Part shown: one piece after another, positions 45,127 through 64,000 of the stretch | Position numbering within the stretch: the stretch's first letter is position 1 | How the letters are laid out: the number at the start of each line of letters is the position of its first letter | Virus record (IMG/VR): IMGVR_UViG_3300028553_001971 | Coordinates: 1 to 64,000 of that record | Reading direction: 5' to 3' (one strand) | DNA: 64,000 bases | Source of the DNA: a virus | Position numbers and translations under genes: made by a program | Notes under the pieces: model-generated | What the model was told of the DNA's origin: nothing | Databases searched by the model: none | What the model saw: the letters and a program-made list of their open reading frames with translations, nothing else

Positions 45127-45143
45127 CAGTTATAAATAATATT

Positions 45144-46403: not shown

Positions 46404-46404
46404 T

Positions 46405-49400: not shown

Positions 49401-50508
49401 TTGGTGTTAAACTATTTGTTGGTGTATTGGTAGGTGTGATGGTTGGAGTATTTGTTGGTGTAAGTGTTGGTGAATTTGTAGGAGTATTGGTTGGTGAATT
49501 TGTAGGAGTATTTGTTGGTGTTAAACTATTTGTTGGTGTATTGGTAGGTGTGATGGTTGGAGTATTTGTTGGTGTTTCAGTCGGTGTTGGTGTTAATGTT
49601 GGTGTTGGAGATGGACAAATAACACACTCAGAACAATTTGAGAAAATTTCGGTAGATTGTATTAAAACAGAACCTGTACCACCTAAAGTAACACTCTGAA
49701 CTTCCCAACAAGTGCCTAAATAAGAAATAACATTACCATTTATTGGTACCGTACATCCCGCAGCATCAATTGATGATGTATTTGTACCATCACAACAATC
49801 TATTAACGTTGCTGTCCAATCAAAACAAGGATTAACTCCTTCACACTCAACACAAGAATTATGAAAAGTCTTGTAAACACCAATAGAAGCCCCTGGTGTT
49901 CCTGAAATAATTTCAAAACAACATCCATCAACATCATATACAAGTCCAACACTTGAACTCGCATTTGGTACCGTAATGGTTAATTGTACAGTACCAGTAC
50001 AACAGTCTTCTACTAAAACATCAGTTAGAGTTTGTCCAGGAGATATTGTTGGTGTTGGAGTTTGTGTAGGAGTTTTTGTAACCGTTGGTGTTACAGTTGG
50101 CGTTTTTGTTTGAGTGGGTGTAACTGAAGGTGTTGTTGTTGGTGTTCTTGTTGGTGTTCTTGTTGGTGTTACAGTAGGTGTTTTTGTTTGAGTTGGTGTT
50201 GGTGTTGGTGAAGGAATTAAAGTAACCGCCAATGAACATGCACCAAGACCACACGCAGGGTCAGTACAATCAGTTGCGACTAACTGTAATGATGTTACTG
50301 TTCCAACAAAAGTACTATTTCCAGAACCAGGATTAACTAAAGATGGTCCGTATACAATCTCAAAACAAACACCACCGCCGCCTACAGCCCTGAAAACATC
50401 ACCAACAGAAATAATTCCCGATGGATATAACGGACTTGATACACTGTTAAGAGTAACAATATTAAAAGGGTTTTTACAACACTGTAATTGAATATATGCG
50501 GTTGCCAT
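46405..50508 (-). CDS. Giant Thr-Pro-rich virion protein with Cys-rich modules (1367 aa)
   Basis: The 1367-residue protein consists of at least six Cys-rich modules of about 60-75 residues (for example '[12 protein letters not shown]', '[12 protein letters not shown]', '[12 protein letters not shown]', '[11 protein letters not shown]'), each with a central C[FW]-x-[EIV] and a closing 'C-x-x-C', separated by Thr-Pro linkers. The longest linker is about 300 residues. The modules look disulphide- or metal-stabilised; the linkers are probably extended and possibly glycosylated. A tail-fibre or long-spike role is inferred from neighbours. It is the first gene of the virion row. Confidence 0.72.
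48710..49613 (-). repeat. Long Thr-Pro coding repeat with a perfect 114-bp duplication
   Basis: GT-rich tandem coding repeats in the 1367-aa gene cover about 300 residues of Thr-Pro with Asn, Ser and Val. A 114-bp block (about 49341-49454) is repeated exactly at 49455-49568, and short flanks extend the identity. It codes a 38-residue unit and looks recent. Confidence 0.92.
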
Positions 50509-50572: not shown

Positions 50573-50797
50573 ATGAGATTAATAAAGGAATTCTTCAATA
50601 TATTTATAATTGTGAGACTTTTAAAAACAATCAAGAAAGTAATTGAGGAGGCTGAGGATAGATATCTCTCAGCATGTGAAAATAATGTTCCATTAAAAGA
50701 GTTGGACAAACTTGAGGAGAATTATAAAAAATCACTAAAGTTAATGGAGATGTTAGAAACAAAATCTCCTGAAAAAACAATCAAAAAGAAATCTTAA
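50573..50797 (+). CDS. Small coiled-coil protein (74 aa), plus strand
   Basis: The product has a hydrophobic N-terminal helix (IKEFFNIFIIVRLLKTIKK) followed by charged heptads (Glu, Lys, Leu) and a Lys-rich end. It could be membrane-associated by the first helix. The end overlaps the kinase gene by 17 bases, convergently. A minus-strand frame over 50524-50709 is a poorer candidate. The function is unknown. Confidence 0.5.
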   Translation: MRLIKEFFNIFIIVRLLKTIKKVIEEAEDRYLSACENNVPLKELDKLEENYKKSLKLMEMLETKSPEKTIKKKS

Positions 50798-51557
50798 ATT
50801 TCTCATCGGGTAAGGATACTCCTTTTTTACTTACCACATCTGAACAAACCTCGTTTGCAAAAGATATTGATTGAATTAAGTCATTTGTTTTGATATAGTA
50901 GGATACAAATGATGCAACAAAAGTATCACCAGCGCCACTAACATCTATAGTATCTTGTGGTTTTGGTGACCTATAAATACTACCCATATACATCGCTCCT
51001 TTAGAACCCAAAGTTATTATAAATTTATCGGGATGTTCGTCAACCAAATTTTTATTGTTATTATATTCTATTTCATTTTGTTTGACAAAAGAAATATTTT
51101 CAATAATATCCCAACTCAATTTCTTCTTAGTATCTAAAATAGATAAACTAGCAATTTTACTTATATCACGAATCATTTGTTCACTAACATATCCCTTATT
51201 ATAATCACTTATTATAACAACATCGGATTCCATGATAGTTTTTTTCTGTTCAGGTGAAAGAAAATTCAAACTTTCACATGGTTGTAATTCACCCTCATCA
51301 ACACGTGTAATCATTTGATTACTTTTTTTCTCAACATATCTTGTTTTTTCAATTTTATTGTGTTGATACCAATGAACAATATCACCCTCAGGTAATAGAG
51401 TTTTTAAGTTTTCAACAACATTACCCGCCATACCATTGTTGGTGGTTGTTTGAATCGGGTTCAATACCGGAACAGGTGCCTCAGGACACAATCTTTTTAT
51501 TTCACAATACACAAATCGGTCAACACAAAGTTCACCTATAACTAAAATTTTTGCCAT
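50781..51557 (-). CDS. PfkB-family sugar kinase, HldE N-terminal domain-like
   Basis: The 258-residue protein matches the kinase half of HldE/RfaE: 'RLCPEAPVPVLNP' (22-34), 'KTRYVEKKSNQMITRVD' (71-87), 'VVIISDYNKGYVS' (113-125) and the C-terminal 'DVSGAGDTFVASF' (205-217) with the catalytic Asp. HldE's kinase phosphorylates D-glycero-beta-D-manno-heptose 7-phosphate at C1. The matching nucleotidyltransferase is a separate gene (52949-53356), so the two HldE halves are unfused here. It is slightly shorter than the bacterial domain (about 310 aa). Confidence 0.83.
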   Translation of the reverse strand: MAKILVIGELCVDRFVYCEIKRLCPEAPVPVLNPIQTTTNNGMAGNVVENLKTLLPEGDIVHWYQHNKIEKTRYVEKKSNQMITRVDEGELQPCESLNFLSPEQKKTIMESDVVIISDYNKGYVSEQMIRDISKIASLSILDTKKKLSWDIIENISFVKQNEIEYNNNKNLVDEHPDKFIITLGSKGAMYMGSIYRSPKPQDTIDVSGAGDTFVASFVSYYIKTNDLIQSISFANEVCSDVVSKKGVSLPDEKFKISF

Positions 51558-52345
51558 TACATTAACAAATATTCTTGAGATTGACCTTTATTAAACCAAG
51601 GTCTACTTATTATGCCAGCCCAAGCATCCATAGTTGCTCCCATGTCAAGAGCTATCTTACCAAACTCATCTCTGAGAATTACCCCATAATCTTTTTGTAA
51701 ACCAACACCTAACAACACAACATCTTCTTTAATATTCTCAAAAGATTTTAAAAACTCATCTCTATTTCTAAAGTTAATCTCTTTAGAGTGTGTTGTAAAG
51801 TTTACAGTTGTTTGTAACTTTTCTTCAAGTTTTTTTGTTGATAATAATTCGGTATTAGGTGAGACAATGTTTACAGATACACCATCAAGTATGTCTTTTA
51901 ATTGATTAACATTCCCAAGTTGTGGACTACGTGCAATCATGTGGTCACATACTTGTATGTTTTTTAAATTAGTTCCCCACAACTCAGCTTTAAACTTTTC
52001 AATAGACCAAGTATTGTAATTGTACGCAATATTAACAATTTTTGTCTTCGGGTCCATCAACCCAATTATGTCGGATTTAACAAAAGCGTTTTTTATTATA
52101 TCACCAGCATCACCATAAAATTGATTAACTTCTTGAGGGTATTTATATCCCCAAAGTTTGCAATTTTTTTCCTCAAAACCACCACCACCTGAACGGTTTA
52201 AAATATAAATTTCACCATCACCAAATCTTGTTAATGCAAACGGTGTTTTATTTAAGATTTTATCTTTAATAATCCCAATTGTTTCCTCAATAGTTTTGTT
52301 TGGTGTAATGTAATTCAGGTTAGAAGTTGATACCATATTTTTCAA
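51557..52345 (-). CDS. GT-D-type glycosyltransferase (DUF1792-like)
   Basis: The N-terminal 'FALTRFGDGEIYIL' carries the R-F-G-D-G-E signature of the GT-D fold, whose D-G-E serves as the metal-binding DxE. The later 'LLGVGLQKDYGVIL' and 'ALDMGATMDAWAG' stretches fit the family's C-terminal part. Known relatives add a sugar to a growing polysaccharide or glycoprotein. It shares one base with the kinase gene, a close coupling. The donor and acceptor are unknown. Confidence 0.75.
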   Translation of the reverse strand: MKNMVSTSNLNYITPNKTIEETIGIIKDKILNKTPFALTRFGDGEIYILNRSGGGGFEEKNCKLWGYKYPQEVNQFYGDAGDIIKNAFVKSDIIGLMDPKTKIVNIAYNYNTWSIEKFKAELWGTNLKNIQVCDHMIARSPQLGNVNQLKDILDGVSVNIVSPNTELLSTKKLEEKLQTTVNFTTHSKEINFRNRDEFLKSFENIKEDVVLLGVGLQKDYGVILRDEFGKIALDMGATMDAWAGIISRPWFNKGQSQEYLLM

Positions 52346-52952
52346 TAATTTTTTGTCCCCGAGGCATTATTTCACCTCTACGACAAACACTAATATACCA
52401 GTGATAATCTAATAGATAAATATTATGTGGATTTTTATTCAAACGAATACTACCATTTATTTCATTTTCCCAAGGATTCTCGTTAGGTAAAACATTATCT
52501 TTTAATTTACTTTTTCTCCAAAGACCAAATTGATGGTTCTGAGTATATTCAGAATCTTGAGCAAACTTTAATAAATTATCTTTAATTTTAATGGTTTTTA
52601 TTAGATTAATATTTTCCTTAATATGTAATTGGTCCATTTTATATTCTTCAAACATTTCAAGAATATTATCCTTTAATTCAAAATCTTTAATACACCAAAA
52701 ATCCTCTTGCATATAAAATACAAGTTCAGATTCAATTTGTTCTAAAGCAATTAATAGTCTTTCACCCCACTCACCTTTACCAGTTTTAATGTGAGTAACA
52801 TCATTCACAAAATCAGGTTCTTTTTCTTCAGATAAAAAGATAATTGGTCCGTGATTTTTACAATGTAAATTAAATAAGTGATACCATGGATTCCAAAATT
52901 TGGAATATGAATCCATTGAATGTAATATTACTGGTATCTCATTAATTTTCAT
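52320..52952 (-). CDS. Glycosyltransferase-like protein (210 aa)
   Basis: The 210-residue protein opens with 'VILHSMDSYSKFWNPW' and contains 'LVFYMQEDFWC' in the place of a GT-A metal site, followed by a helical region and a C-terminal 'YLLDYHWYISV'. It is probably a small GT-A-type enzyme, but I do not recognise a named family. It overlaps the GT-D gene by 26 bases and abuts the nucleotidyltransferase gene (4-base overlap). Confidence 0.55.
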   Translation of the reverse strand: MKINEIPVILHSMDSYSKFWNPWYHLFNLHCKNHGPIIFLSEEKEPDFVNDVTHIKTGKGEWGERLLIALEQIESELVFYMQEDFWCIKDFELKDNILEMFEEYKMDQLHIKENINLIKTIKIKDNLLKFAQDSEYTQNHQFGLWRKSKLKDNVLPNENPWENEINGSIRLNKNPHNIYLLDYHWYISVCRRGEIMPRGQKIIEKYGINF

Positions 52953-53356
52953 CTATCTCTCAATATTTTTGTTGTAGAGAACTCTCCTACTTTTGGAAAA
53001 AAGATAACTTGTTTTGCGAACTGACCACCAATAACTTCTTTAGTTTCGTATTCACTACCAACAACTAAGATATCAGGATTCCATTCTTTAATTTGTCTTT
53101 CAAGTTCTTCCCTTGTTCCAAATCCAACCACACTATTAACACCTTTAATCTTAGACATAAAATATTCTCTGTCCTCAAAAGAATTGAAGGGTCTATTATG
53201 TCCCTTAAATTCTTTTATTCTTTCATCAGTGTCAATCCCTACTCTTAAAGTACCAAACTTTGACGCAAATTGAATGAGTTCAATGTGCCCTCTGTGAAGA
53301 ACATCAAAAGAACCATTAACCCAAACCTTTATTTCGGTTGACTGTCTCCCTTCCAT
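52949..53356 (-). CDS. Nucleotidyltransferase, HldE C-terminal domain-like
   Basis: The 135-residue protein matches the adenylyltransferase half of HldE: 'VNGSFDVLHRGHIELI' (13-28) holds the HxGH nucleotide motif, 'FKGHNRPFNSFEDREYFM' the middle block, 'DILVVGSEY' the next, and 'GEFSTTKILRDR' the closing S-T-T-[NK]-I signature. HldE uses ATP to activate heptose 1-phosphate to ADP-heptose. The N-terminus overlaps the cupin gene by 28 bases. Nucleotide preference cannot be read from sequence. Confidence 0.85.
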   Translation of the reverse strand: MEGRQSTEIKVWVNGSFDVLHRGHIELIQFASKFGTLRVGIDTDERIKEFKGHNRPFNSFEDREYFMSKIKGVNSVVGFGTREELERQIKEWNPDILVVGSEYETKEVIGGQFAKQVIFFPKVGEFSTTKILRDR

Positions 53357-53718
53357 ACGCGATAAGAATCAGAATCAAAATGTTGTGTTGACACTTCAAA
53401 TACGGTTCCATCGGTCAAAGCCTCCAACTGGTGTGGTTGACCTGGTAATTGTCTTACAGTATCACCAACTTTTAAATGTTGCTCAATGACTTCAGCGGTT
53501 TTGGTGTCTATCCATCTATAGATAAATTCACCTTCATCAACATACCAAGTCTCATCTTTTATTAGGTGGTAGTGCATTGAAAATTTCGCACCTTTTTTGA
53601 ACACTAATAGTTTACCACAATATAATTCGTTATTCACGAATATCACTTCATGTCCCCATCCTTTGGGAACATTACACCCTTCACATTCAATTGCGTTAAT
53701 TACCTTTGGTTTTTCCAT
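53329..53718 (-). CDS. Cupin-fold protein, phosphomannose isomerase type II-like
   Basis: The 129-residue protein has the cupin motifs 'KFSMHYHLIKDETWYVDEG' (His, His, Glu metal ligands, then Gly) and the second motif 'LPGQPHQLEAL'. It opens 'KGWGHEVIFVNNELYCGK', as in the C-terminal cupin of mannose-1-phosphate guanylyltransferase/isomerase proteins. It could be a sugar-phosphate isomerase or epimerase supplying the cluster. It lies between the nucleotidyltransferase and sulfotransferase-like genes. Confidence 0.75.
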   Translation of the reverse strand: MEKPKVINAIECEGCNVPKGWGHEVIFVNNELYCGKLLVFKKGAKFSMHYHLIKDETWYVDEGEFIYRWIDTKTAEVIEQHLKVGDTVRQLPGQPHQLEALTDGTVFEVSTQHFDSDSYRVWKGDSQPK

Positions 53719-53719
53719 T

Positions 53720-54472
53720 TTACAAATTTATTTTTTTATAACCTAAGTCACTAATTAAATGATGTAATTCATCATCAGATGAAATCAAGTCTTTCATCTT
53801 ATCACTTAAGTTTAATTCATGATATCTTTCTTCAACTTTATCCCATGTTTGAAAAGAACTTTGACTTCCTTTAATACCGTCTAACCCATAATGGTCTTTG
53901 ACACCAAAAGTTTCAAACAAAAATTTATCACGAACTTCTTTATTACTAATCCAATCTTCAAACTTTAAAAAAGATACTTGGTTGTTTGCACAAGCCCTTG
54001 CATGACTCTTCCAACGTTCAATGAATATCTCATCAACTTTAAAAAGATGTGGTTCTTGAGTGTCCCATTTTGTAAAAATGGTTCTCTCATTTGAACGAAT
54101 ACGTGATGATAAATTATTATAAAAATCTCTTAAAAAACAAACCCGACCTAAATGGTCTATATTATATTCGTTTCTTTTTTCAAGTGATAATGGTGCCTTA
54201 TAAATTCTATCTTCATTAAAGATAGTATAATCATAAGGAGCGTCTTCATAATTGACAAAAATTAAACCAATAGATTCTTTATGTTCATCTAAAAATTTAA
54301 AACTTAATGGTATATCGTGGTTTGCCTCACCTAAATGAAAAAAATTAGTTCCTGAAGCATTAATCATTTTGAATTTCCACTCTAATTGGAAACCAACTAA
54401 ATTTCTAATAATCCAATTTTTAATTGAGTGGTGTCCTGAACGGCTTAATGCCATTGTTTCGTACATTCTCAT
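53720..54472 (-). CDS. Sulfotransferase-like P-loop protein (250 aa)
   Basis: The N-terminus 'MALSRSGHHSIKNWIIRN' resembles the PAPS-binding loop of sulfotransferases ('RSGSxxL...WI'), and a later 'VCFLRDFYNNLSSRI' resembles the 3'-phosphate motif (R-D-[PF]). The rest is helical and aromatic. It might add sulphate to a glycan, but substrate and activity are uncertain; a kinase-like P-loop is an alternative. It overlaps the epimerase gene's stop by 4 bases. Confidence 0.5.
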   Translation of the reverse strand: MRMYETMALSRSGHHSIKNWIIRNLVGFQLEWKFKMINASGTNFFHLGEANHDIPLSFKFLDEHKESIGLIFVNYEDAPYDYTIFNEDRIYKAPLSLEKRNEYNIDHLGRVCFLRDFYNNLSSRIRSNERTIFTKWDTQEPHLFKVDEIFIERWKSHARACANNQVSFLKFEDWISNKEVRDKFLFETFGVKDHYGLDGIKGSQSSFQTWDKVEERYHELNLSDKMKDLISSDDELHHLISDLGYKKINL

Positions 54473-55287
54473 TTTTTCTCAAGATATTCTTTGTAATCTT
54501 TTATTCCCATTTCTAAATCCCACTTGGATTCCCAACCATTCATCCATTTTGATTTATTACTACACGTATAGAATTGATATCCATTTGGAATTACATCTTC
54601 TGATGTATAACCATATTCAATACCCATATTATTAAGGACATCTTCAAAGGTTCTTGCGGTACCACTACCTACTTCATAGTATTTACTACCCAATTCTTCA
54701 TAGTTTTCCAACGCATGAATGTTGGCTGAAACAATATCTTTGATGTAAACAAAATCTCTTTGTGGTTTTTTCGGGAACAGTGTTATTTTTTCACCTTTAG
54801 TATTCTTTATAAACATCTGATAAGCAACGGACGCCATTTTACCTTTGTCTTCTTCTCCTGGTCCATAGACATTGAAATATCTAAGAGCAATGCCTCCATT
54901 GGATATTACATATCCCTCACCAACATATTTACTCCAACCATATAAGTTTGATGGATATAAATTATTAGTTCCATAATTCGCAGCAGATGATGAGTAAATC
55001 ATTGGTTTGTTATTCTTAACACACCAATCCATTATGATTTTAGTTGATTCGTAATTACGAGTCATCATATAATCAACATTGGTTTCTAAAGTATCTGAAC
55101 ACGCTCCAACATGGAATACCGCATCATAATTCATACTTTCAAGTATTTGTAATAATTTTTCACCCCAATTTAAGTTTAAAAAATATGAATCATCAAATTG
55201 AGTGACTAAATAACCATCTCTTTCAAGTTGAAATGCTAATGATTTCCCGATGAAACCTCTTGTTCCTGTAACAATAACTTTTTTCAT
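54469..55287 (-). CDS. ADP-heptose 6-epimerase-like (HldD), SDR family
   Basis: The 272-residue protein is a strong match to HldD/RfaD: Rossmann 'GTRGFIG' (8-14), 'AVFHVGACSDTLETNVDYMM', the catalytic Y-x-x-x-K in 'YGWSKYVGE', 'LRYFNVYGPGEEDKGKMASV' and 'RDFVYIKDI'. HldD turns ADP-D-glycero-D-manno-heptose into the L-glycero form for LPS and protein glycosylation. It diverges from the SET gene and leads the minus-strand sugar operon at this end. Confidence 0.88.
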   Translation of the reverse strand: MKKVIVTGTRGFIGKSLAFQLERDGYLVTQFDDSYFLNLNWGEKLLQILESMNYDAVFHVGACSDTLETNVDYMMTRNYESTKIIMDWCVKNNKPMIYSSSAANYGTNNLYPSNLYGWSKYVGEGYVISNGGIALRYFNVYGPGEEDKGKMASVAYQMFIKNTKGEKITLFPKKPQRDFVYIKDIVSANIHALENYEELGSKYYEVGSGTARTFEDVLNNMGIEYGYTSEDVIPNGYQFYTCSNKSKWMNGWESKWDLEMGIKDYKEYLEKK

Positions 55288-55339
55288 AATCTATTTTCAA
55301 TAACATAATTATAAACTATTTTTTTAAAAAAGTAATATT

Positions 55340-55747
55340 ATGACATTGAATATTCACCCTCCCCAAAAAATTTATGTAAAAAATTCACCTGTACACGGAT
55401 TAGGTGTTTTTGCAAGTGAAAAAATTAACAAAGATGAAATTTTTGAAGTATGTCCAATTTTGTCACTACCAATGAAATTCGGTGAAGTAAGTCCTTTGTT
55501 TATTGACTATAGATTCAATTGGCCATCGGGAACTTCAGATTGGAAAGAACAAGTTATTTCTTTAGGGTTCGGTAGTCTTTATAATCACAGTGAAAGTCCA
55601 AACGCTTATTGGTTTTCAGATAACGAAACAAGAACATTTAAATTTGTTGCACATCGTGATATTGAACCAGAAGAAGAAATTTTTGTTTGGTATGGTGATG
55701 TTAACTATTGGAACGATGGTAGGACATCAATAGAGGTTATTTCTTAA
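55340..55747 (+). CDS. SET-domain protein
   Basis: The 135-residue protein is a compact SET domain: 'SPVHGLGVFASEKINKDEIF' (17-36) near the N-terminus, 'FGSLYNHSESPNAYW' with the conserved N-H-S-x-x-P-N, and 'IEPEEEIFVWYGDVNYW' with the E-E-[IL]-x-x-x-Y-G close. SET enzymes methylate lysines of proteins using SAM. The target is unknown; the phage also codes for an H1-like protein. It lies on the plus strand between the HldD-like gene and the fusion gene, overlapping the latter's end by 11 bases. Confidence 0.85.
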   Translation: MTLNIHPPQKIYVKNSPVHGLGVFASEKINKDEIFEVCPILSLPMKFGEVSPLFIDYRFNWPSGTSDWKEQVISLGFGSLYNHSESPNAYWFSDNETRTFKFVAHRDIEPEEEIFVWYGDVNYWNDGRTSIEVIS

Positions 55748-57536
55748 AGGCAATTGAGACACCTTTTTCTCTATAGGTTTGAAATCCCTTTTCAATTAAA
55801 AAGTTATTAATCAATTCTCTCTCCTTGTCACTTGAGTTATTATATTCATAAATAATAATGTCAAGATGTGATAATTGTTCATCCGTTAATGACATTATTA
55901 ATTCAAAATCAATACCTTCCACATCAGTGTGAACCCAATTAACATCAGGTGTTATTAATTCAGAAAATTTAATTGATTCTCTAACAGTTTCAGTTATTGG
56001 TTCTGTCTCCCAATAATCAATAACTCTTTTTACAACAGTGTTTGTATACCCTTTACCACCTTCGTAAAAGACCGTATCAGTTCCATCTTTAGTAACTAGT
56101 TGATTTATAAATTTTAGATTCTCAAATGACGAGTAATTTTTAATTAACTCATTGAATTGTTTTTTACTAACCTCAATAAGTGTTATTTCGGATAACTTAT
56201 CAATCGCAACAGGAACCCATTCACCAAATTCACCATTATGAGTTCCAACAACAACACCTTTAGATTTTTCTTTGTTTTTACAATAGTTCCACAACTTTTT
56301 GTAAATAAAATCACCATCAGTATTTACATCCCATTTTCTATGATACACCAGTTCATCTTGATTGTCTTTGACAACAACATCGACAATTTCAGTATCAGGA
56401 AATGTTGCCCAAGAATCTGAATATAATTTTACATCCCAAATTTTACGCTGGTTAATTTGTCTTTTAAATTCAAATGAAAATGGTAGTTTATCTTTATTAA
56501 ATACTCTAATCAAATCTTTAGTGTTTATACGTATTTCGTGTGAGTAATCTATTTCAAAAGGTATTTCATCGTAGTAAAATATGTTACGATTTGTTTTTTT
56601 TATGGTATCCGAATAATCATAAGTCATTTCACCATCAAAAATTACAAATTCATCTATTTTAGTTGAGTCGTAATCTAATTCAATTACCACCGTGTCATTA
56701 ATCTTGAAGTTATGTGTATCTCCGTTAATATTTAAACTAAAATCAATATTTTCTTTGACATCATAGAAGAAAATTTTTAATTTACCGTTAATCCATCCTT
56801 TTGTTGGTCCATCTTCTAACCAAATTTCCCCATCATCGTTCTTATTAAAGTATAATTTATACTTCTCATTCTTAGAGTAATTAAAAAAATCTGTGTCCTC
56901 CCAATAATAAATTAGGTCTTTAACGGGTTGGTTTGATGTTGGTATATTGTATTTATTTTTCCATTTTAAAACTTCACCTTCTGCGACACCATTTGTTCTC
57001 AAATACTCATCAAGTTCTATTTCACTAACAATTTTTTCCATCATAGGTCTATCAAAAACCATAAAGTGTAAAGTTGTTTCCCATAACGTATCAGGATTAT
57101 GTGGGTCTCTTCTTGGGTGGATGATATTTGTAGTGTCGTTAGTTAGTTCGTTTTCTACAACGTCATCAATTACTAAGTCATATATCATATGATAAAAAAT
57201 GTCATAATCATAAGATAATGCAATTTGAGATAACTTTTTAACTTGGTATAATCCAGCCCATCCATAATCCGCCAAATTGTGGTGCATTTTAACCCACCCT
57301 TCATCAGTATAGACTGACTTCCAAAAAGTAAAAGAACGAACAGGCCAAAGCAATAAAGGATTTTCTTTAGTAAAGAAAACAAAATCAGACAATTCAATAA
57401 TTTCTGATGGTAATGTTAATGGACTTATTACTAAAACATCTAATCCAAAAGATTTTATTTTAATAATATTTTCTTTTAGAATTTCAATTTTTTCTATTGT
57501 GTCACAATATGTACTAATTAAAACTATTTTTTTCAT
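55737..57536 (-). CDS. Glycosyltransferase-FkbM methyltransferase fusion (599 aa)
   Basis: The first 200 or so residues ('MKKIVLISTYCDTIEKIEIL', then 'DIFYHMIYDLVIDD') resemble the GT-like protein at 59567-60568. A beta-rich linker follows, and the C-terminal 170 residues form an FkbM-type SAM methyltransferase: 'GVVVGTHNGEFGEW', 'VNWVHTDVEGIDFELI' and 'LDIIIYEYNN'. A fusion would couple sugar transfer with O-methylation. It overlaps the next gene by 4 bases. Confidence 0.68.
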   Translation of the reverse strand: MKKIVLISTYCDTIEKIEILKENIIKIKSFGLDVLVISPLTLPSEIIELSDFVFFTKENPLLLWPVRSFTFWKSVYTDEGWVKMHHNLADYGWAGLYQVKKLSQIALSYDYDIFYHMIYDLVIDDVVENELTNDTTNIIHPRRDPHNPDTLWETTLHFMVFDRPMMEKIVSEIELDEYLRTNGVAEGEVLKWKNKYNIPTSNQPVKDLIYYWEDTDFFNYSKNEKYKLYFNKNDDGEIWLEDGPTKGWINGKLKIFFYDVKENIDFSLNINGDTHNFKINDTVVIELDYDSTKIDEFVIFDGEMTYDYSDTIKKTNRNIFYYDEIPFEIDYSHEIRINTKDLIRVFNKDKLPFSFEFKRQINQRKIWDVKLYSDSWATFPDTEIVDVVVKDNQDELVYHRKWDVNTDGDFIYKKLWNYCKNKEKSKGVVVGTHNGEFGEWVPVAIDKLSEITLIEVSKKQFNELIKNYSSFENLKFINQLVTKDGTDTVFYEGGKGYTNTVVKRVIDYWETEPITETVRESIKFSELITPDVNWVHTDVEGIDFELIMSLTDEQLSHLDIIIYEYNNSSDKERELINNFLIEKGFQTYREKGVSIAFKK

Positions 57537-59026
57537 AACATAAATCCAAATCTATAATCTTTTTTAACACCTAAAATTTCTTCAACACTTTTTTTAGTTA
57601 TAATAATACAATTCTTATAATGCGTAATTGATTCAATATTTTGGTGATTTTTAACCCTACTAAAGTTAGAGTTTATTTTGTGTGGGACTGAAGAAAAATA
57701 ATCAATAACATTATAATTACCAATCTCATATCCATATATGGTTTCTTTGGGATTCCAATAGTTACATTCAATATCTTCAATGATGTAAACTCCACCTTCT
57801 TTTAACATATTTTCAAATAGGTAATTAAATGTTTCTATTTGGTGTTGTGGTTGGTGACTTCCGTCATCAATAATAACATCACACTGACCTATCAAATTAA
57901 ACATTCTTTCCAAGTCTTCGATTTTACTTTGGTCACCTTTATACATAATACCTCTTTCTTGATTTCTTTCTTCAGAGATATCCATAGCGTAAATCATACC
58001 GTTTTTAAAATATTCAATCCACATTCTAAAAGACGCCGCTTCGCTACCAGAACCAATTTCAAATAATTTTATTTTTTTATTACTTAATGGTTCCAAAAAC
58101 TTTTCATAAATTCTATCATATCTATGTTCCAATACTTTGTCTGTATTGTATTTTAGACCCAGACCATACATATCACTATTGTTCTGATTTTCAAGAATAA
58201 TATTTACAACCTCATCAATAGCATCTTTATAATCACTGTAAGGTCTAACACAATTAACATCAATATAAAAACCTTGTTTCAACTTATCTAAATCATACAC
58301 CCCATATTTTTTTTGGTTTTCTATTTCACCGTCCCATTTTAATTCTACAGGAAAGTTATGTCTTTCAATTCTCCTTGGGGTTAAAAATTTACTATAATGC
58401 CCTCGTTTTAATTTGATGATTTCAACATCGTGTTGATTGGTATTTACACAATCTGAAAAATAGAACTCATCAATCAACCACATAATTTTATAACCATCTT
58501 TGTAGTTTGAGTGTCTATTCATAAATTCGTCAAAAGAACAATCAGAATTTAAAATTTTTGTAAAAGTTTTACCCTTACCTGCGTTGTAGATATAACCATA
58601 CATCTCTTGTTTGAATGGTAGTGGTTCTTCTTGAAACAAGTCATTTGATTCAGGTCTGCTTAAGTCATATGCATCACTCGACATGATAACTAAAGAATCT
58701 TCTGAGTAGTGTTTTAGTTGTTCGACAAAATAATTTTTATTAATCATCAACATATCTAAATCACCACAAATACAAACATCATCAGGAAAGTATTTGGTAC
58801 CGAACATTCTAACGGTACAGGCTTGAATTGCTGTGTGTATTCCTTCAACAAATTTAACATTTTTTACCAATCCGTTTCCATCATCATAGAACTCACTATC
58901 TTCATCAGAAATTTTAAAAAGGACTGGTTCCCAACCAAATATTTCTCGACACAATTTAGCCTGAATTGGCCAAAACTCTAAGAAATAAGAGTCATCACTT
59001 GCAAATATTATTTTTTTAATTTCCAT
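57533..59026 (-). CDS. Glycosyltransferase-SAM methyltransferase fusion (497 aa)
   Basis: The start at 59026 (MEIKKIIFASDD) keeps the overlap with the next gene to 11 bases; a longer start at 59047 is possible. Residues 1-270 form a GT-A-like domain with the metal site in 'CICGDLDMLMINK' (about 88-100). Residues about 295-495 form a class I methyltransferase: 'KLFEIGSGSEAASF', 'IYAMDISEERN' and 'DVIIDDGSHQPQHQIETF', as in macrocin O-methyltransferases. It is the second GT-methyltransferase fusion in tandem. Confidence 0.75.
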   Translation of the reverse strand: MEIKKIIFASDDSYFLEFWPIQAKLCREIFGWEPVLFKISDEDSEFYDDGNGLVKNVKFVEGIHTAIQACTVRMFGTKYFPDDVCICGDLDMLMINKNYFVEQLKHYSEDSLVIMSSDAYDLSRPESNDLFQEEPLPFKQEMYGYIYNAGKGKTFTKILNSDCSFDEFMNRHSNYKDGYKIMWLIDEFYFSDCVNTNQHDVEIIKLKRGHYSKFLTPRRIERHNFPVELKWDGEIENQKKYGVYDLDKLKQGFYIDVNCVRPYSDYKDAIDEVVNIILENQNNSDMYGLGLKYNTDKVLEHRYDRIYEKFLEPLSNKKIKLFEIGSGSEAASFRMWIEYFKNGMIYAMDISEERNQERGIMYKGDQSKIEDLERMFNLIGQCDVIIDDGSHQPQHQIETFNYLFENMLKEGGVYIIEDIECNYWNPKETIYGYEIGNYNVIDYFSSVPHKINSNFSRVKNHQNIESITHYKNCIIITKKSVEEILGVKKDYRFGFML

Positions 59027-59570
59027 AAAACTTATTAATAAACCCATCTATATCATCGGACCACATATCCATTGCATTGTCTCTAATTTTTTGTTCATCC
59101 CAATCCCACCAAGAAATTGATAATAGTTTTTCAATTTGCTCTTCGGTAAATCTATACTTAACAACTTTAGCAGGATTACCGGCAACAATTGCGTATGGAG
59201 GAACATCTTTAGTAACTGTAGAACCAGCCGCCACTATAGCACCATTACCAATTTTTATACCTGACATAATCGTTGAGTTAGCACCAATCCATACGTCATT
59301 TTCAATAATAATGTCACCTTTGCAGGATGGGTGGCCCATATCCATATGCATTTGAGCAATCTCGTGATTTACAGGACCCCAAAGTTGTGATGAGGTTGTA
59401 ACCCAGTCAGGTCTGTGATTAGCGTGTAAGAAAAAATTACAATCCCTACCAATTGAATTGTATTTACCAACCCTAACATTGTATTGGTCACTCCATGAAA
59501 TTATGTTTACATGTCGGTCAAAATAGGTACCCCTATCTGCATGCCAAAGATGTATGTTTTCTATATTCAT
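59016..59570 (-). CDS. Hexapeptide-repeat acetyltransferase (CatB-like)
   Basis: The 184-residue protein has left-handed beta-helix turns ('DIIIENDVWIGANSTI', 'IKIGNGAIVAAGSTV') and closes with 'PYAIVAGNPAKVVKYRF', the typical end of xenobiotic/sugar acetyltransferases. 'NFFLHANHRPDW' holds the catalytic His region. It should use acetyl-CoA to O- or N-acetylate a sugar. It is overlapped by both neighbours in the sugar operon. Confidence 0.85.
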   Translation of the reverse strand: MNIENIHLWHADRGTYFDRHVNIISWSDQYNVRVGKYNSIGRDCNFFLHANHRPDWVTTSSQLWGPVNHEIAQMHMDMGHPSCKGDIIIENDVWIGANSTIMSGIKIGNGAIVAAGSTVTKDVPPYAIVAGNPAKVVKYRFTEEQIEKLLSISWWDWDEQKIRDNAMDMWSDDIDGFINKFYGN

Positions 59571-60568
59571 ATTTGAAATGATTCTTTATATCTGAAACTA
59601 CTTTTTTTGAAGATATCAATTTCTTCATTACTATTTAATTTAAATTTATTTCTAATTTCACCATTTTCAATTATTAATATACTTTGGATTTCATTTACAT
59701 TACCTAAATTAACTAATCTCCAATGGTTTAATAATGTTGTTGGTATATTAACAATCCTATCATTATTAAGAATTATAATGTGTTCAACACCATTTTGATT
59801 TTTTGTATTCCAAACAACAAATCCAATAGTATCGTTTAATTTATCGTAAAAAGGTACCGCCCATGGTATAAACTTAACACCAACTTGTCCATCAATTATA
59901 CCGAATTTATTTCCATTTACTTCGAGACTATGTCTGTCTTTTTTAAAAACTTTTCCACTATCTTCCAATATTTTCTGAAGCATCAATTCAGGTGATTTAG
60001 TTTCTGATTGTCTAATCATCTCAACTATTTTTCCCTCATCTAAATTAATCAGAAACTTATCTAATGTTGGTAACAAATATGATTGGAAACTTCCGAATAA
60101 AATGTCATCAACATTTTCTCTACTATCAATATAAATTACAGAATCAAATTCATCTAATAATACAGAGTTATTTTTAAACTCTTCAATGTTTTCAATATTA
60201 CAATCGTACTCAATGTGGTGAACTTTGTTATATCCCATATTTTTTGCTAACGAAAATCCCAATATCATCATTCTCCATATTGCAAGATGTGTATTTTTTC
60301 CAGTTAAAAATGAAGACTGAATTCTTCTTTCATTATTTGGATTAAACCAAGGTTGGTTAAGTAAATCCCAATCAGTAAGTATCTCATTTTTACTATCATA
60401 AAAACAATAATTAACTTTATTTTGAATATCAAAAGGGATTGGTGTATGACTAACAATTAAAGTATCAAAAGTATCTTTAAATTTTAAGAGTGAATTTACT
60501 AAATTTCTTAGAATATTTTCTCTATGTTCGTCAGGACAATAAGCGGTAATTAAGATTAAATCTTTCAT
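59567..60568 (-). CDS. Glycosyltransferase-like protein (333 aa)
   Basis: The N-terminus 'LILITAYCPDEHRENILRNL' and 'KVHHIEYDCNIENIEE' (an acidic cluster where GT-A enzymes have DxD) resemble the N-terminal domain of the fusion at 55737-57536, so the two are paralogous glycosyltransferases. The C-terminal part is strand-rich and unlike a methyltransferase. It shares one base with the PglD-like gene and overlaps the acetyltransferase start by 4 bases. Confidence 0.62.
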   Translation of the reverse strand: MKDLILITAYCPDEHRENILRNLVNSLLKFKDTFDTLIVSHTPIPFDIQNKVNYCFYDSKNEILTDWDLLNQPWFNPNNERRIQSSFLTGKNTHLAIWRMMILGFSLAKNMGYNKVHHIEYDCNIENIEEFKNNSVLLDEFDSVIYIDSRENVDDILFGSFQSYLLPTLDKFLINLDEGKIVEMIRQSETKSPELMLQKILEDSGKVFKKDRHSLEVNGNKFGIIDGQVGVKFIPWAVPFYDKLNDTIGFVVWNTKNQNGVEHIIILNNDRIVNIPTTLLNHWRLVNLGNVNEIQSILIIENGEIRNKFKLNSNEEIDIFKKSSFRYKESFQI

Positions 60569-61146
60569 TATAATATTTTTTTTGTTGGGACACCGACATA
60601 AATTCCTAGTTCTTCTATGTCTTTAACAACCGCACCATTCATACCTATAGTTGTTAATGAATGAATTGATAATTTTTCCTTAATTGATGAATTATTACCC
60701 ATATAAACTAAATCATGAATTGTAACATTACCTGAAACAATTGCTCCTGGCATCGCACTAAAATAATTACCAATTTCACAATCGTGACCAATATGGTTAC
60801 CTCTATTTAGTAACGCATGTTTACCTATTTTTATATTAGTTGTTAAGATTGAATGAGCACCTATAAAACTACCTTCACCAATTTCAACATCATCACTCAT
60901 GATTAAAGCAGTTGGGTGAATCCAAGTAAAATATTTTGTTTCTTTTGGTAATCTTTGAACTATATCAAACCTATCCTTTGAGTCTGCAACTGCAACCATC
61001 AAAGCATATTTTTTTGGGTTAAACTTTGATAATGGTAGTGTTCCTTCAACAACATATTCATCGTCAACAAAACAAGTAAGTTTAACTCCCATTTGAGCCA
61101 TAACCTCACGAGCGTGTCCCCCATACCCAATCAAAGCTTTTTTCAT
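60568..61146 (-). CDS. PglD/NeuD-type sugar acyltransferase
   Basis: The 192-residue protein has the PglD N-terminal fold ('KKALIGYGGHAREVMAQM', Gly-x-Gly-Gly-His) and left-handed beta-helix turns ('DDVEIGEGSFIGAHSI', 'KIGKHALLNRGNHIGHDCEI'). It should N- or O-acetylate an amino sugar nucleotide. The DegT-type aminotransferase next to it would make that amino sugar, the same pair found in bacillosamine-type pathways. It overlaps that gene by 4 bases. Confidence 0.87.
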   Translation of the reverse strand: MKKALIGYGGHAREVMAQMGVKLTCFVDDEYVVEGTLPLSKFNPKKYALMVAVADSKDRFDIVQRLPKETKYFTWIHPTALIMSDDVEIGEGSFIGAHSILTTNIKIGKHALLNRGNHIGHDCEIGNYFSAMPGAIVSGNVTIHDLVYMGNNSSIKEKLSIHSLTTIGMNGAVVKDIEELGIYVGVPTKKIL

Positions 61147-61787
61147 TGTTTATAAACATCAAACTTTGATAAATCAGGATATGGTAATTCCAAATCCTCG
61201 TTATGTTTTTTACTACCATCAAGATTGTAGAATTGGTTCATAAGAAGTAATCCTCTTGCAGCCAATTCAGGCATCATGTAGAAGTTCCACCCTATCATAT
61301 CTAAGTAATCGTCATGATAAGAACATTCACGTCTTCCACTATATCTCGCTCTTTTAAACCAGTGATACGCCTCAAGACTATCTGTCAATATTGCACCACC
61401 CTTACTTAATTTGAAATGTTTGTAAGGACCTGTGAATGAAACACAAATGTGTTGGTTTGGTTTATACATATCAGCTGTAAAACTTAATGCCGAATCCCAA
61501 ACATTACTTCCCTTGAGTTGGTACATACCTTTAATTGTTTTACCTTCAATAGGTTCAAAATCAACTTTAAGACCCGCATGAATAATCTCACACGGAACCG
61601 AAGGATATGTTCTACAAGGAATTCCTACTTTATCATCAGTAATACTTTTTTTAACGTTTTTTTCATAATACAACGCCAAAAACAAAGCATTACTCATATT
61701 ATCTACGGTAATCACATATGGTGCACCCGTATAATCTGAAAGAGCTTTCTCAAAATCTTCTGTAATTTTATAAATACCATTTGCCAT
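61143..61787 (-). CDS. Short DegT/DnrJ-type sugar aminotransferase
   Basis: The likely start is Met 61787 (MANGIYKITEDF), giving about 214 residues. It has the N-terminal PLP fold ('PYVITVDNMSNALFLALYY', 'VGIPCRTYPSVPCEIIHAG') and 'GPYKHFKLSKGGAILTDS', where a Lys stands at the PLP site. The family is usually about 370 residues, so the C-terminal domain is missing. It may be a natural short form or a truncated copy; the reading frame has no internal stop or frameshift. Confidence 0.65.
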   Translation of the reverse strand: MANGIYKITEDFEKALSDYTGAPYVITVDNMSNALFLALYYEKNVKKSITDDKVGIPCRTYPSVPCEIIHAGLKVDFEPIEGKTIKGMYQLKGSNVWDSALSFTADMYKPNQHICVSFTGPYKHFKLSKGGAILTDSLEAYHWFKRARYSGRRECSYHDDYLDMIGWNFYMMPELAARGLLLMNQFYNLDGSKKHNEDLELPYPDLSKFDVYKQ

Positions 61788-61843
61788 ATGTTGAAAAAAT
61801 AGAATAAAATAATATATTTTCAATAATCAACTTAACACTTTAT

Positions 61844-64000
61844 ATGGAAAAACCAAAAATTTATGTTCATGGGTCTTACATCGGAACAACAGGGTATAAT
61901 AACCACACAAGAGATTTTTTAAGAGAACTATCAAAACACACAAAAGTTAAAGTAAGAAACTTTACTGTTGGTAACAGTTGGAATGGTTATAACTTAACCC
62001 CCCATGATAACGAACCTTACATTAATGATGTCGATAAATCAATGTTATACAAACAGATTTTGTATAACTCTGAAGGTAAGTTAGAGGACTTTCTAATTTA
62101 CCCTGACAAGTCAAAAGAGTTTTTTCAAGACGTTAACATTGTATTAAGTGAAACAAACCATCATATCTTCTATCAAGATTATGTTGGTCCAAAAATAGCG
62201 TATAACGTTTGGGAATCAACTTTACAACCTGAAGAGTTCTTCAACGAACTTTTAAAGTACGACGAGATTTGGGTTCCAAGTAAATGGCAAAGAGAATGTA
62301 CTATCAACCAAGGCGCTAACCCAAACAAAGTTAAAGTTGTACCTGAAGGTGTTGATATTCATACATTCTTTCCTGAAGAAGTTGAAAAGTTGGAACAATA
62401 TAATGATGGTCGGTTCAAGTTTCTATTGTTTGGTCGTTGGGATTACAGAAAATCAACCAAGGAAATAATTCAAACATTCTTAAAGACGTTCTCACCTGAC
62501 GAACCCGTAGATTTGGTTGTGTCGATTGACAATATGTGGGGTGAAGAAATGGATGGTTATAAAACCACTGAGGAACGATTGGAGGCTTACGGTCTAACTG
62601 ACCCAAGAATCAAAATGATTCACTTCCCAACAAGAGAAGATTATATCAAATACCTTAAAACAGGTCACGTGTTTGTTTCTTGTGCAAGGTCTGAAGGATG
62701 GAACTTACCACTTATCGAAGCCATGGCTTGTGGTACCCCGTCAATTTATTCTGAGTGTTGCGCTCAAATGGAGTTTGCCGAAGGTAAGGGTATTCCTGTA
62801 AAGATTATTGGTGAAAAACCGGCGAATTCAAATGACTACGGTAGATACACAATGAGCGATTTACCAGGAAACTATTATGAACCTGATTTCAATGATTTAT
62901 CAGAAAAGATGAGGTTTGTTTATAAAAATTACAAACAATGTAAATTAGACGCAATTAAAGATGCTATTGAGATTCATAAAGAATTCTCTTGGGAAAGAAT
63001 TGGTGAAATCGGTTATAATACCGTTGTTGAGTTCATGAAAAACCATAAAAAGACCGACGTTGACAATAATAAAATTTCTGTTTTTTATCTTGACGGCCCA
63101 AAGGTTGATATATCAGGTGATGAAGATAGAACTTATTTTGTTGAGTTTTTAGATGAGAAAGATAATGTAATTCATTCTCATACCATGAAAAACAATCATT
63201 GGGTTCAATGTGGTAGAAAATATTATACAAAGTGGAGGATTAGAGTTAATGGTAAAATTGTTGGGGAACTTGATTTAACAGGAAAAAGAGTTCTTATTTC
63301 ATTTGAATCAAAATCAATTGGTGATACAATTGCTTGGGCACCATATGCAATAGAATTTCAGAAAAAACATAACTGTCAGGTAGTTTTGAGTACCTTCCAC
63401 AATAGTTGGTTTAAAAATAACCCTAACTATGAAAGTATTGAATTTATTGAACCAGGACGTTCTACAAACTGTCACGCACTTTATAGAGTTGGTTGGTTTA
63501 TGTCTGAAGAAGGAAAATGGAATAAGTTAGACAGTTATCCGAACTATATTCAAACACTACCACTTCAACAAACCGCAACAGATATTTTAGGTCTTGATTA
63601 TGTTGAACGTAATTATGGTATTTTCTTTGATGTAAAGGAAAGACCATTCAAAAACAAATACGTTGTCTTGGCTCCCGAATCAACAGCGGGTTGTAAAGAA
63701 TGGACTTATGAAGGATGGTGTTACTTAACAGACCAATTAATTAAAAAAGGTTATGAAGTTGTAATTCTTACAACAAAACCATACTCTGTTAAAGGTGCGA
63801 AATGTATTTACGGAAAATCTCTCAATGATGCACTTAACATCCTTTATCATTCAGAATTCTTAGTATCCCCAAGTTCAGGCATGGCTTGGATGAATTGGGG
63901 TGTTGGTAAACATACCGTAATGATTAGTGGATTCACCCCCAAACACCACGAGTTTCAAACCAACATCACAAGAATAATCAACGAAAACGCTTGTAACTCT
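61844..64000 (+). CDS. GT4 glycosyltransferase fused to O-heptosyltransferase-like domain (partial)
   Basis: At least 719 residues are present; the gene runs off the window. Residues 1-400 form a GT4 enzyme: 'YVHGSYIGTTGYNNHTRDFL', 'LFGRWDYRKSTKEI' and the E-x7-E in 'SEGWNLPLIEAM' (about 285). A small beta domain follows ('YLDGPKVDISGD'), then from about 480 a GT-B half like the autotransporter heptosyltransferases (TibC/AAH): 'SKSIGDTIAWAPY', 'LAPESTAGCKEW' and 'SPSSGMAWMNWGVGKHTVMI' with 'GFTPKHHEF'. The last residues 'NENACNS' reach the first Cys of the expected metal finger. Confidence 0.8.
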   Translation, partial: MEKPKIYVHGSYIGTTGYNNHTRDFLRELSKHTKVKVRNFTVGNSWNGYNLTPHDNEPYINDVDKSMLYKQILYNSEGKLEDFLIYPDKSKEFFQDVNIVLSETNHHIFYQDYVGPKIAYNVWESTLQPEEFFNELLKYDEIWVPSKWQRECTINQGANPNKVKVVPEGVDIHTFFPEEVEKLEQYNDGRFKFLLFGRWDYRKSTKEIIQTFLKTFSPDEPVDLVVSIDNMWGEEMDGYKTTEERLEAYGLTDPRIKMIHFPTREDYIKYLKTGHVFVSCARSEGWNLPLIEAMACGTPSIYSECCAQMEFAEGKGIPVKIIGEKPANSNDYGRYTMSDLPGNYYEPDFNDLSEKMRFVYKNYKQCKLDAIKDAIEIHKEFSWERIGEIGYNTVVEFMKNHKKTDVDNNKISVFYLDGPKVDISGDEDRTYFVEFLDEKDNVIHSHTMKNNHWVQCGRKYYTKWRIRVNGKIVGELDLTGKRVLISFESKSIGDTIAWAPYAIEFQKKHNCQVVLSTFHNSWFKNNPNYESIEFIEPGRSTNCHALYRVGWFMSEEGKWNKLDSYPNYIQTLPLQQTATDILGLDYVERNYGIFFDVKERPFKNKYVVLAPESTAGCKEWTYEGWCYLTDQLIKKGYEVVILTTKPYSVKGAKCIYGKSLNDALNILYHSEFLVSPSSGMAWMNWGVGKHTVMISGFTPKHHEFQTNITRIINENACNS

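Follow-up and report, generated by a model that had tools for sequence, protein, structure and literature searches.

A phage gene cluster that may supply ADP-manno-heptose, with a cupin as its candidate heptose-phosphate isomerase

We analysed a window comprising bases 1-64000 of the 67,251-base IMG/VR record IMGVR_UViG_3300028553_001971, which belongs to a tailed phage and is possibly a fragment. Towards its end the window carries a glycosylation island, and we propose that a cluster of seven minus-strand genes within this island (50781-55287) is the phage's own supply of ADP-manno-heptose. Judging from sequence, such a synthetic role is very probable. We also consider it rather likely that a small cupin encoded in the cluster, which a preliminary description of this DNA had overlooked, is a non-orthologous sedoheptulose-7-phosphate isomerase standing in place of GmhA. 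We put the probability that both proposals are correct at roughly 0.55. The case is built on homology, conserved residues, gene order and kinase-cupin fusions; labels beginning with L or G denote the loci and genomes of relatives that we compared.

The preliminary description had reported three separate genes resembling the HldE kinase domain, the HldE nucleotidyltransferase domain and HldD, and both the open reading frames (ORFs) and NCBIfam searches confirmed that these lie in a tight minus-strand run. According to the ORF list, successive genes of the run overlap by 1-28 bases or are separated by a gap of 1 base. Reading from 55287 down to 50781, the order is the HldD-like gene, a 250-residue protein, the cupin, the nucleotidyltransferase, a 210-residue protein, a GT-D-like protein and the PfkB kinase, which places the cupin between the nucleotidyltransferase and the HldD-like gene. 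The seven genes, together with a large fusion gene at the far end of the island, are as follows.

50781-51557, minus strand: putative short HldE-type heptose-7-phosphate kinase of the PfkB fold, 258 amino acids (TIGR02198 124 bits; PF00294; phrog_8133)
51557-52345, minus strand: GT-D-fold glycosyltransferase-like protein (PF22882 37 bits, cut-off 27; NF040628 31 bits, below its cut-off of 75)
52320-52952, minus strand: island protein, 210 amino acids, no Pfam family at E<=0.1
52949-53356, minus strand: HldE-type nucleotidyltransferase, 135 amino acids, presumed heptose-1-phosphate adenylyltransferase (TIGR02199 85 bits; phrog_7878)
53329-53718, minus strand: cupin, 129 amino acids, presumed sugar-phosphate aldose-ketose isomerase replacing GmhA (PF07883; phrog_7851)
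53720-54472, minus strand: 250-amino-acid protein with an RSGHH motif, sulfotransferase-like by eye only, no convincing family
54469-55287, minus strand: HldD-like, putative ADP-heptose 6-epimerase, 272 amino acids (TIGR02197 194 bits)
61844-64000 and on to record position 64135, plus strand: fusion of a GT4 and a TibC-like heptosyltransferase half, 763 amino acids in total (PF00534, PF13692, PF01075, TIGR04414)

These genes had been described as a single operon-like cluster with the fusion at its end. We retain the term operon for 50781-55287; because a second gene run and a plus-strand SET gene separate the HldD-like gene from the fusion, the remainder can only be called one island. The heptose families are also neighbours in three cyanophages and in many other phage contigs, which is more than expected by chance.

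In the pathway that we propose, the cupin would convert sedoheptulose 7-phosphate to heptose 7-phosphate, and the PfkB kinase would convert this to the 1,7-bisphosphate. A phosphatase would then strip the 7-phosphate; in cyanophages and other cassettes this may be a small HAD, and here the enzyme would be host-borne or encoded beyond the contig. The nucleotidyltransferase would form ADP-D,D-heptose, which the HldD-like enzyme would convert to ADP-L,D-heptose. Finally, the TibC-like half of the fusion, perhaps with other transferases of the island, would place heptose on protein Ser/Thr, most likely in virion fibre proteins. We infer all of these reactions, as well as the acceptor and the pairing of donor and transferase. 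In chemical terms, the first step, from sedoheptulose 7-phosphate, involves the same aldose-ketose change that turns fructose 6-phosphate into mannose 6-phosphate, and therefore a cupin resembling phosphomannose isomerases is a sensible candidate for it.

For each of the three enzymes first recognized, the heptose family ranked best in NCBIfam: for the kinase among 18 families (E 6e-36), for the nucleotidyltransferase among 9 (E 6e-24) and for the epimerase among 14 (E 4e-57). The kinase and nucleotidyltransferase profiles thus did not favour a non-heptose sugar pathway. In the kinase we found a GAGD motif and the HldE N-terminal signature, both of which are common to cyanophage kinases, and the nucleotidyltransferase shared 43-45% identity with three proteins from cyanophages. 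Among solved structures, the epimerase had HldD proteins as its four top matches (1eq2, 2x6t, 3sxp and 4ej0), and alignment to 1eq2 showed identity at the positions of E. coli HldD Ser116, Tyr140, Lys144 and Lys178, which we take to be its catalytic residues. Weighing against our reading, all three proteins scored below the equivalog cut-offs (345, 181.5 and 274.6 bits for kinase, nucleotidyltransferase and epimerase, respectively), and therefore we regard them as relatives rather than certified members of these families. From the profile rankings, we conclude that the three enzymes probably work like their heptose-family relatives.

The sub-threshold scores would also fit a set that makes another nucleotide sugar, for example a CDP- or ADP-linked one other than manno-heptose, by means of enzymes drawn from heptose families. 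In line with this, the nucleotidyltransferase also matched glycerol-3-phosphate cytidylyltransferase (TIGR01518, 62 bits; solved structure 1coz), and neither profile scores nor solved relatives settled its nucleotide specificity. The epimerase, however, matched the HldD model at 194 bits and the GalE model at 52 bits, and the combination of kinase and phosphatase points to the heptose route; to our knowledge, making and then breaking a bisphosphate is peculiar to that route. We therefore consider another nucleotide sugar distinctly improbable.

The preliminary description had noted the absence of the isomerase GmhA and the phosphatase GmhB from the window and suggested that part of the supply might come from the host or from adjoining sequence. 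The absence was confirmed and extends to the whole record, in which we found neither a SIS_2 domain nor a GmhB-like HAD. We reject the idea that GmhA lies just past 64 kb: in the last 3,251 bases of the record, the fusion gene ends and is followed by an FkbM-type methyltransferase (PF05050) and, at the record end, a Gly/Ser/Thr-repeat fibre gene. Two longer records that belong to this phage (79,584 and 77,665 bases, possibly fragments) likewise yielded no GmhB-like HAD, in a search whose positive control, S-CAM1, matched at 193 bits. The missing phosphatase counts against our reading. SIS_2/GmhA was detected in none of 37 phage records, with positive controls including E. coli matched, and no SIS_2 match occurred in the complete Bellamy genome (control matched) or in S-SM2, P-TIM68 and S-CAM1. 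Among 50 records, TIGR00441 gave one weak match (29 bits). A system fully independent of host genes, as first envisaged, is therefore not supported, even though the cupin may replace GmhA. Taken together, the preliminary interpretation stands in part: the enzymes rank with the heptose families, and complete independence is not supported.

Outside phages, none of 37 cellular genomes exceeded the TIGR00441 cut-off and nine scored above 100 bits, including two with the cassette. A GmhA-like gene was present in three of the four cellular genomes with a four-gene cassette (G072, 120 bits; G075, 180 bits; G077, 83 bits), which counts against our reading, and was not found in the fourth, G095. In five genomes with a kinase-cupin fusion (that of L138 left out), four had nothing above 20 bits and one had a match of 52 bits. 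We rejected the absence of SIS domains alone as proof of replacement by a cupin, since this absence varies among the 37 cellular genomes.

What, then, points to the cupin? Its residues H49, H51, E56 and H96 do not vary among 31 phage cupins, nor among 15 phage, bacterial and archaeal sequences that include four of six kinase-cupin fusions. An HxH/E/H set of this kind has a metal role in phosphomannose and D-lyxose isomerase cupins. All 31 phage cupins matched PF07385 (D-lyxose isomerase) weakly at E<=0.1, and the window's cupin stayed below the curated cut-offs of PF07385 (16.1 versus 20.8 bits) and PF01050 (14.4 versus 23.6 bits). The predicted model is an all-beta barrel with a putative metal site and cupin matches (predicted local distance difference test score 93.7), and an archaeal phosphomannose isomerase, 7zvm, aligns with it at Z 15.0 and 1.8 Å over 99 residues. 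The fold comparison leaves the substrate unsettled, as unrelated cupins rank as high, with oxalate decarboxylase, CapF, KdgF, phosphomannose isomerase, D-lyxose isomerase and seed storage cupins all falling in one range; this tie is a point against our assignment. In PHROGs, the family (phrog_7851) is labelled 'cysteine dioxygenase'.

The cupin could also act later, as a C3/C5 epimerase whose substrate is heptose already linked to a nucleotide; DdahB and MlghB of Campylobacter jejuni are cupin-fold enzymes of this kind. The invariant HxH/E/H set suggests a metal enzyme, unlike RmlC-type epimerases; in addition, the cupin is fused to a kinase rather than to a nucleotidyltransferase or epimerase, and the profiles that it matches weakly are those of sugar isomerases. 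We consider this role very unlikely, even though cupin-fold epimerases on GDP-linked heptose are established (in the sections consulted of PMC7949155).

We found the cupin to have at least 566 relatives in IMG/VR, and the phage locus counts given here cover the best 80. The profiles used for these counts were enriched from phage loci, making the phage counts partly circular, whereas the cellular counts are not. A nucleotidyltransferase lies within 500 bases of the cupin in 32 of the 80 loci; within 2 kb, a kinase was found in 31 (one further off), an epimerase in 17 (five further off) and a HAD in nine (five further off). Fifty cellular cupin loci, obtained by scanning bacterial and archaeal genomes, had a kinase in 18 cases, a nucleotidyltransferase in 15, an epimerase in eight and a HAD in five within 2 kb. 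All five genes fall within 3.5 kb in seven phage and two cellular loci. Six of the cellular loci (L135, L137, L138, L139, L144 and L146), all in metagenome-assembled genomes of bacteria or archaea, encode a fusion of an HldE-type kinase with the cupin, which follows the kinase in five and precedes it in one. The kinase parts match nearly the whole TIGR02198 model (261-333 bits), and five of the six cupin parts weakly match the phosphomannose-isomerase model TIGR01479.

The cyanophage sets bear on the same step. The nucleotidyltransferase matched 97 phage records and the cupin 35, all of the latter cyanophage or marine single-virus records, many of them duplicates of one phage. Among the 40 nucleotidyltransferase matches listed (of 97) are 31 of the 35 cupin records; the other four are two records of Bellamy, SynMITS9220M01 and AG-345-E15. 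In S-SM2, P-TIM68 and S-CAM1, a nucleotidyltransferase, a kinase, an epimerase and the cupin are accompanied by a gene that bears the label 'phosphoheptose isomerase', and the window resembles this type of set in having the first four together. We rejected the labelled gene as a GmhA in these three phages, where it is a HAD: four such genes align as one HAD of about 105 residues with a DxDxT motif. Cellular HADs of such cassettes weakly match the capsule phosphatase family TIGR01689. A HAD suits the GmhB step, and therefore the isomerase step would be empty without the cupin, which is the remaining candidate.

The Bellamy and SynMITS9220M01 records are explained by a different kinase/nucleotidyltransferase pair. 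In these two phages, the gene immediately before the cupin encodes a GHMP-type kinase, and the best solved relatives of these kinases are the heptose kinases 3k85 and 4n3o (234-258 bits). The cupin sits between this kinase and a 216-residue nucleotidyltransferase (L156 7946-9949 in SynMITS9220M01; L157 4976-6949 in Bellamy). In SynMITS9220M01, the nucleotidyltransferase weakly matches the heptose-pathway structures 6jq8 and 5xhw among others, and the group is perhaps a GDP-heptose-type set. The cupin thus occurs beside two unrelated kinase types, suggesting that the shared link is the substrate, a D-glycero-D-manno-heptose phosphate. Because of this second kinase, we raised our estimate for the cupin as isomerase from slightly better than even to its present level. 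SynMITS9220M01 also has a second set (L156 14559-17638), whose 'phosphoheptose isomerase' matches solved phosphoheptose isomerases at 39 bits and is a SIS-type relative. The label is therefore not always wrong, and the presence of both cupin and SIS-type relative in one phage is evidence against the cupin as a replacement.

These observations must be weighed against another possibility: as a phosphomannose-type isomerase of the ordinary kind, the cupin would serve a different sugar, and heptose 7-phosphate would come from host GmhA, with the phage boosting only the later steps. Several results favour this explanation and weigh against ours. No partner gene was found near the cupin in 41 of the 80 phage loci; of 20 records in which the cupin has no kinase close by, 14 had none anywhere in the record; and neither kinase nor nucleotidyltransferase was found in the records of L033, L042 and L071 (112, 150 and 219 kb), the first of which has a cupin 80% identical to that of the window. 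In L114, the cupin adjoins a GDP-mannose 4,6-dehydratase (523 bits), a mannose setting. GmhA-like genes coexist with the cupin in several cellular genomes and in one cyanophage, and archaeal phosphomannose isomerases are among its closest folds. We considered whether lone cupins might be served by a GHMP heptose kinase and rejected this, since none was found in 15 of 15 phage cupin records without a local kinase or in five cellular genomes. On the other side are the six fusions to HldE-type kinases, the GHMP heptose kinases adjoining the cupin in two cyanophages, cassettes without another isomerase, and the lack of SIS_2 matches in S-SM2, P-TIM68, S-CAM1 and Bellamy. We therefore regard the phosphomannose-type explanation as unlikely and retain the cupin as a candidate heptose-phosphate isomerase. 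The lone cupins fit a manno-type phosphosugar isomerase that serves more than one setting, or another function. Many of the loci L021-L060 represent a lone-cupin lineage in which, by eye in the loci viewed, a cupin about 75-80% identical lies beside a 178-residue P-loop kinase-like gene and a terminase-like gene.

We next consider the fusion, which the preliminary description had presented as a heptosyltransferase matching the heptose supply. Its C-terminal half passed the TIGR04414 cut-off of 200 bits when the full 763 residues were searched (215 bits; the piece cut by the window gave 166), as did four fusion relatives (212-232 bits) and a protein of the complete Microcystis phage Mel-JY01 (317 bits). 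Residues 430-754 match the TibC structures 4rap and 4rb4. In TibC numbering, the catalytic Asp110 and the sugar/phosphate residues Thr226, Lys230 and Trp305 are kept, as are the iron-finger cysteines C717, C720, C736 and C748, and both groups are invariant in seven fusions. TibC Pro300 is replaced by Ser, as in AAH; according to the portion consulted of eLife 03714, Pro300 limits TibC to ADP-D,D-heptose and AAH with Ser takes both heptose epimers. The Ser fits because an HldD-like gene is present in the island. With regard to the ADP-heptose-binding residues, whose loss would have told against the preliminary description, the sugar/phosphate residues named above were kept and Arg286 was lost. 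Its position is Ala in the fusion, and none of the eight phage proteins compared has Arg there. The same portion of eLife 03714 gives Arg286 as an adenine contact and calls it highly conserved. ADP as the donor nucleotide is therefore unproven, and we call the protein TibC-like rather than filing it as a BAHT.

The loss of Arg286 is one of several findings that weigh against a dedicated pairing of supply and transferase. We examined 13 near-full-length fusion loci, of which L086 and L087 belong to the window's own phage and L088-L098 to other phages, with some repeats. In L086 and L087, the nucleotidyltransferase is at the locus and the kinase is elsewhere in the record. No kinase or nucleotidyltransferase was found near the fusion in any of the 11 loci of other phages, neither was found in whole-record searches of seven of these, and Mel-JY01 has the fusion and no detectable HldE-type kinase. 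At E 1e-5, the fusion matched no Synechococcus or Prochlorococcus record; the 138 matching records are named Streptomyces, Rhodococcus, uncultured or Microcystis. It follows from the kinase-free fusions that supply and transferase are separable, and their pairing here may not be exclusive. The fusion could then use a host donor or another nucleotide sugar, its proximity to the heptose genes being an accident of island shuffling. We hold this to be a real but lesser possibility, in view of the retained Asp110, Thr226, Lys230 and Trp305, the Ser at the Pro300 position, which suits ADP-L,D-heptose, and the HldD-like genes (252-266 bits) found in the fusion's island in L088 and L089 and, 8 kb from the fusion, in L097. 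The idea of a matching transferase thus holds for the TibC-like half and its key residues and not for the relatives that lack kinase and nucleotidyltransferase or for Arg286. We consider it fairly likely that heptose is the donor of the TibC-like half. By eye, an ORF resembling the 250-residue RSGHH protein adjoins the fusion in L088 and L089.

A virion protein, in particular a fibre, is our tentative choice of acceptor. In L088, L093 and L094, relatives of the fusion are found 0.3-1.2 kb ahead of tail sheath genes, the S-CAM1 cassette is situated between tail-fibre genes, and the island is flanked by Thr/Pro-repeat proteins on one side and by the Gly/Ser/Thr-repeat fibre on the other. Because of these neighbours, we favour virion fibres over host lipopolysaccharide (LPS). 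Attachment to LPS or to some other glycan of the host surface, which might for instance keep other phages out, is nevertheless a possibility to which we give less than even odds: heptose is a usual LPS sugar, and the sections consulted of two papers on cyanophages assign such genes to LPS synthesis (PMC9602691, PMC7378029). The transferase, however, is nearest to protein O-heptosyltransferases. The Thr/Pro-repeat proteins contain 20-26% Thr and 11-13% Pro, with 33, 78 and 224 PT/TP pairs, and their composition and position make them candidate O-glycosylation acceptors. When we looked for a constant Ser/Thr-rich partner across the 13 fusion loci, L086, of the window's own phage, was flagged, L093 and L098 had Gly/Pro-rich neighbours and none was flagged in the other ten. 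At the record end, the Gly/Ser/Thr-repeat fibre gene is a long GSSGTSG-repeat, fibre-like ORF (L002 3122-5452, record 64921-67251) that runs off the sequence beside the glycosyltransferase.

Between the HldD-like gene and the fusion, the second same-strand run (55737-61823) encodes an aminotransferase and two proteins resembling acetyltransferases, as well as three larger proteins, of which two have no convincing family and one has a methyltransferase-like end. The remaining genes of the island and its flank are listed below.

44479-50508, minus strand: three Thr/Pro-rich (PT-repeat), mucin-like proteins beside the cluster, by composition
55340-55747, plus strand: SET-domain gene within the glycan island, 135 amino acids (PF00856 55 bits)
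55737-57536, minus strand: 599-amino-acid island protein, C-terminal part methyltransferase-like by eye, no convincing family
57533-59047, minus strand: 504-amino-acid island protein with a methyltransferase-like C-terminal part (weak PF13578, PF13847)
59016-59570, minus strand: hexapeptide acetyltransferase-like protein (PF00132)
59567-60568, minus strand: 333-amino-acid island protein, no Pfam family
60568-61146, minus strand: NeuD/PglD-like sugar acetyltransferase (TIGR03570 152 bits, cut-off 160.8)
61143-61823, minus strand: compact DegT-type aminotransferase, 226 amino acids (PF01041 45 bits)

The adjacent DegT aminotransferase and NeuD-like acetyltransferase would form an amino-sugar branch within the island, and DegT-like ORFs of about 216 residues were seen by eye in L090 and L097. 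SET-like ORFs were likewise seen in the islands of L096 (18870-19271) and L097 (19364-19753). A SprB repeat occurs in the protein at 42491-44488, a neighbour of the Thr/Pro-repeat proteins. Elsewhere in the window, 5217-15548 (minus strand) encodes three very long collagen-like, glycine-rich repeat proteins (29-35% Gly), and 18262-19110 (minus strand) encodes a D12-class N6-adenine DNA methyltransferase (PF02086, 91 bits).

A heptose-type gene set in phages is already known, since such sets are annotated in cyanophages and appear in print: the genome announcement of SynMITS9220M01, in the part consulted, names heptose kinase, phosphoheptose isomerase and ADP-heptose epimerase as heptose-LPS genes (PMC7378029). 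A huge phage with a WaaC-type heptosyltransferase is named in the consulted part of PMC10747093. The interesting part is the cupin as a candidate second class of heptose-phosphate isomerase. The open literature searched, which left subscription journals and preprints outside, yielded neither a cupin acting as sedoheptulose-7-phosphate isomerase nor a phage TibC-type enzyme; an apparent mention of 'TibC' in PMC10892653 was rejected, being the firm TIBCO. In its broadest form, our proposal would be that metal cupins serve as a second isomerase class with two kinase folds in bacteria, archaea and phages, that a small HAD completes a compact phage route leading from a pentose-phosphate intermediate to ADP-heptose, and that the product feeds a GT4-TibC fusion that O-heptosylates fibres; this full chain is speculative. 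If our reading is true, the phage makes its own activated heptose and decorates proteins without the host's first heptose enzyme, and public labels need to change for the cupin ('cysteine dioxygenase') and, in several cyanophages, for the HAD ('phosphoheptose isomerase'). Heptose-type sets without a detected GmhA, as in some Patescibacteria and archaea, would also be accounted for by such a new class of isomerase.

Compared with the bacterial ADP-L-glycero-D-manno-heptose pathway (GmhA, HldE, GmhB and HldD), the phage has homologues of the kinase, nucleotidyltransferase and epimerase. The first two are separate and shorter in the phage, no SIS-type GmhA was found, and a cupin lies in the cluster. 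That cupin shares small size, the HxH/E/H set, a similar fold and weak PF07385 and PF01050 matches with type II phosphomannose and D-lyxose isomerases, and differs from them in scoring under the cut-offs, in lying among heptose genes and in having kinase-fused relatives. The closest known sets are those of the cyanophages (Kyanoviridae) S-CAM1, S-SM2 and P-TIM68, which have the same four families, 32-54% identical to those of the window, near glycan or fibre genes. They have the small HAD, which was not detected in the window's phage, and no Synechococcus or Prochlorococcus record matched the fusion at E 1e-5. SynMITS9220M01 shares the cupin, which there accompanies a GHMP-type heptose kinase and a separate SIS-type isomerase. 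With the BAHT enzymes TibC and AAH (TIGR04414), the fusion shares the catalytic Asp, Thr226, Lys230, Trp305 and the iron finger; in contrast to them, the TibC-like half sits behind a GT4 domain and lacks Arg286, and no autotransporter was noticed in the record, although none was searched for. Lastly, Mel-JY01 WWT39291.1 (L155 4750-8430) also combines a GT4 half (48% identical to that of the fusion) with a TibC-like half (39%), but it has 1226 residues with an extra middle part and is annotated only as 'methyltransferase FkbM'.

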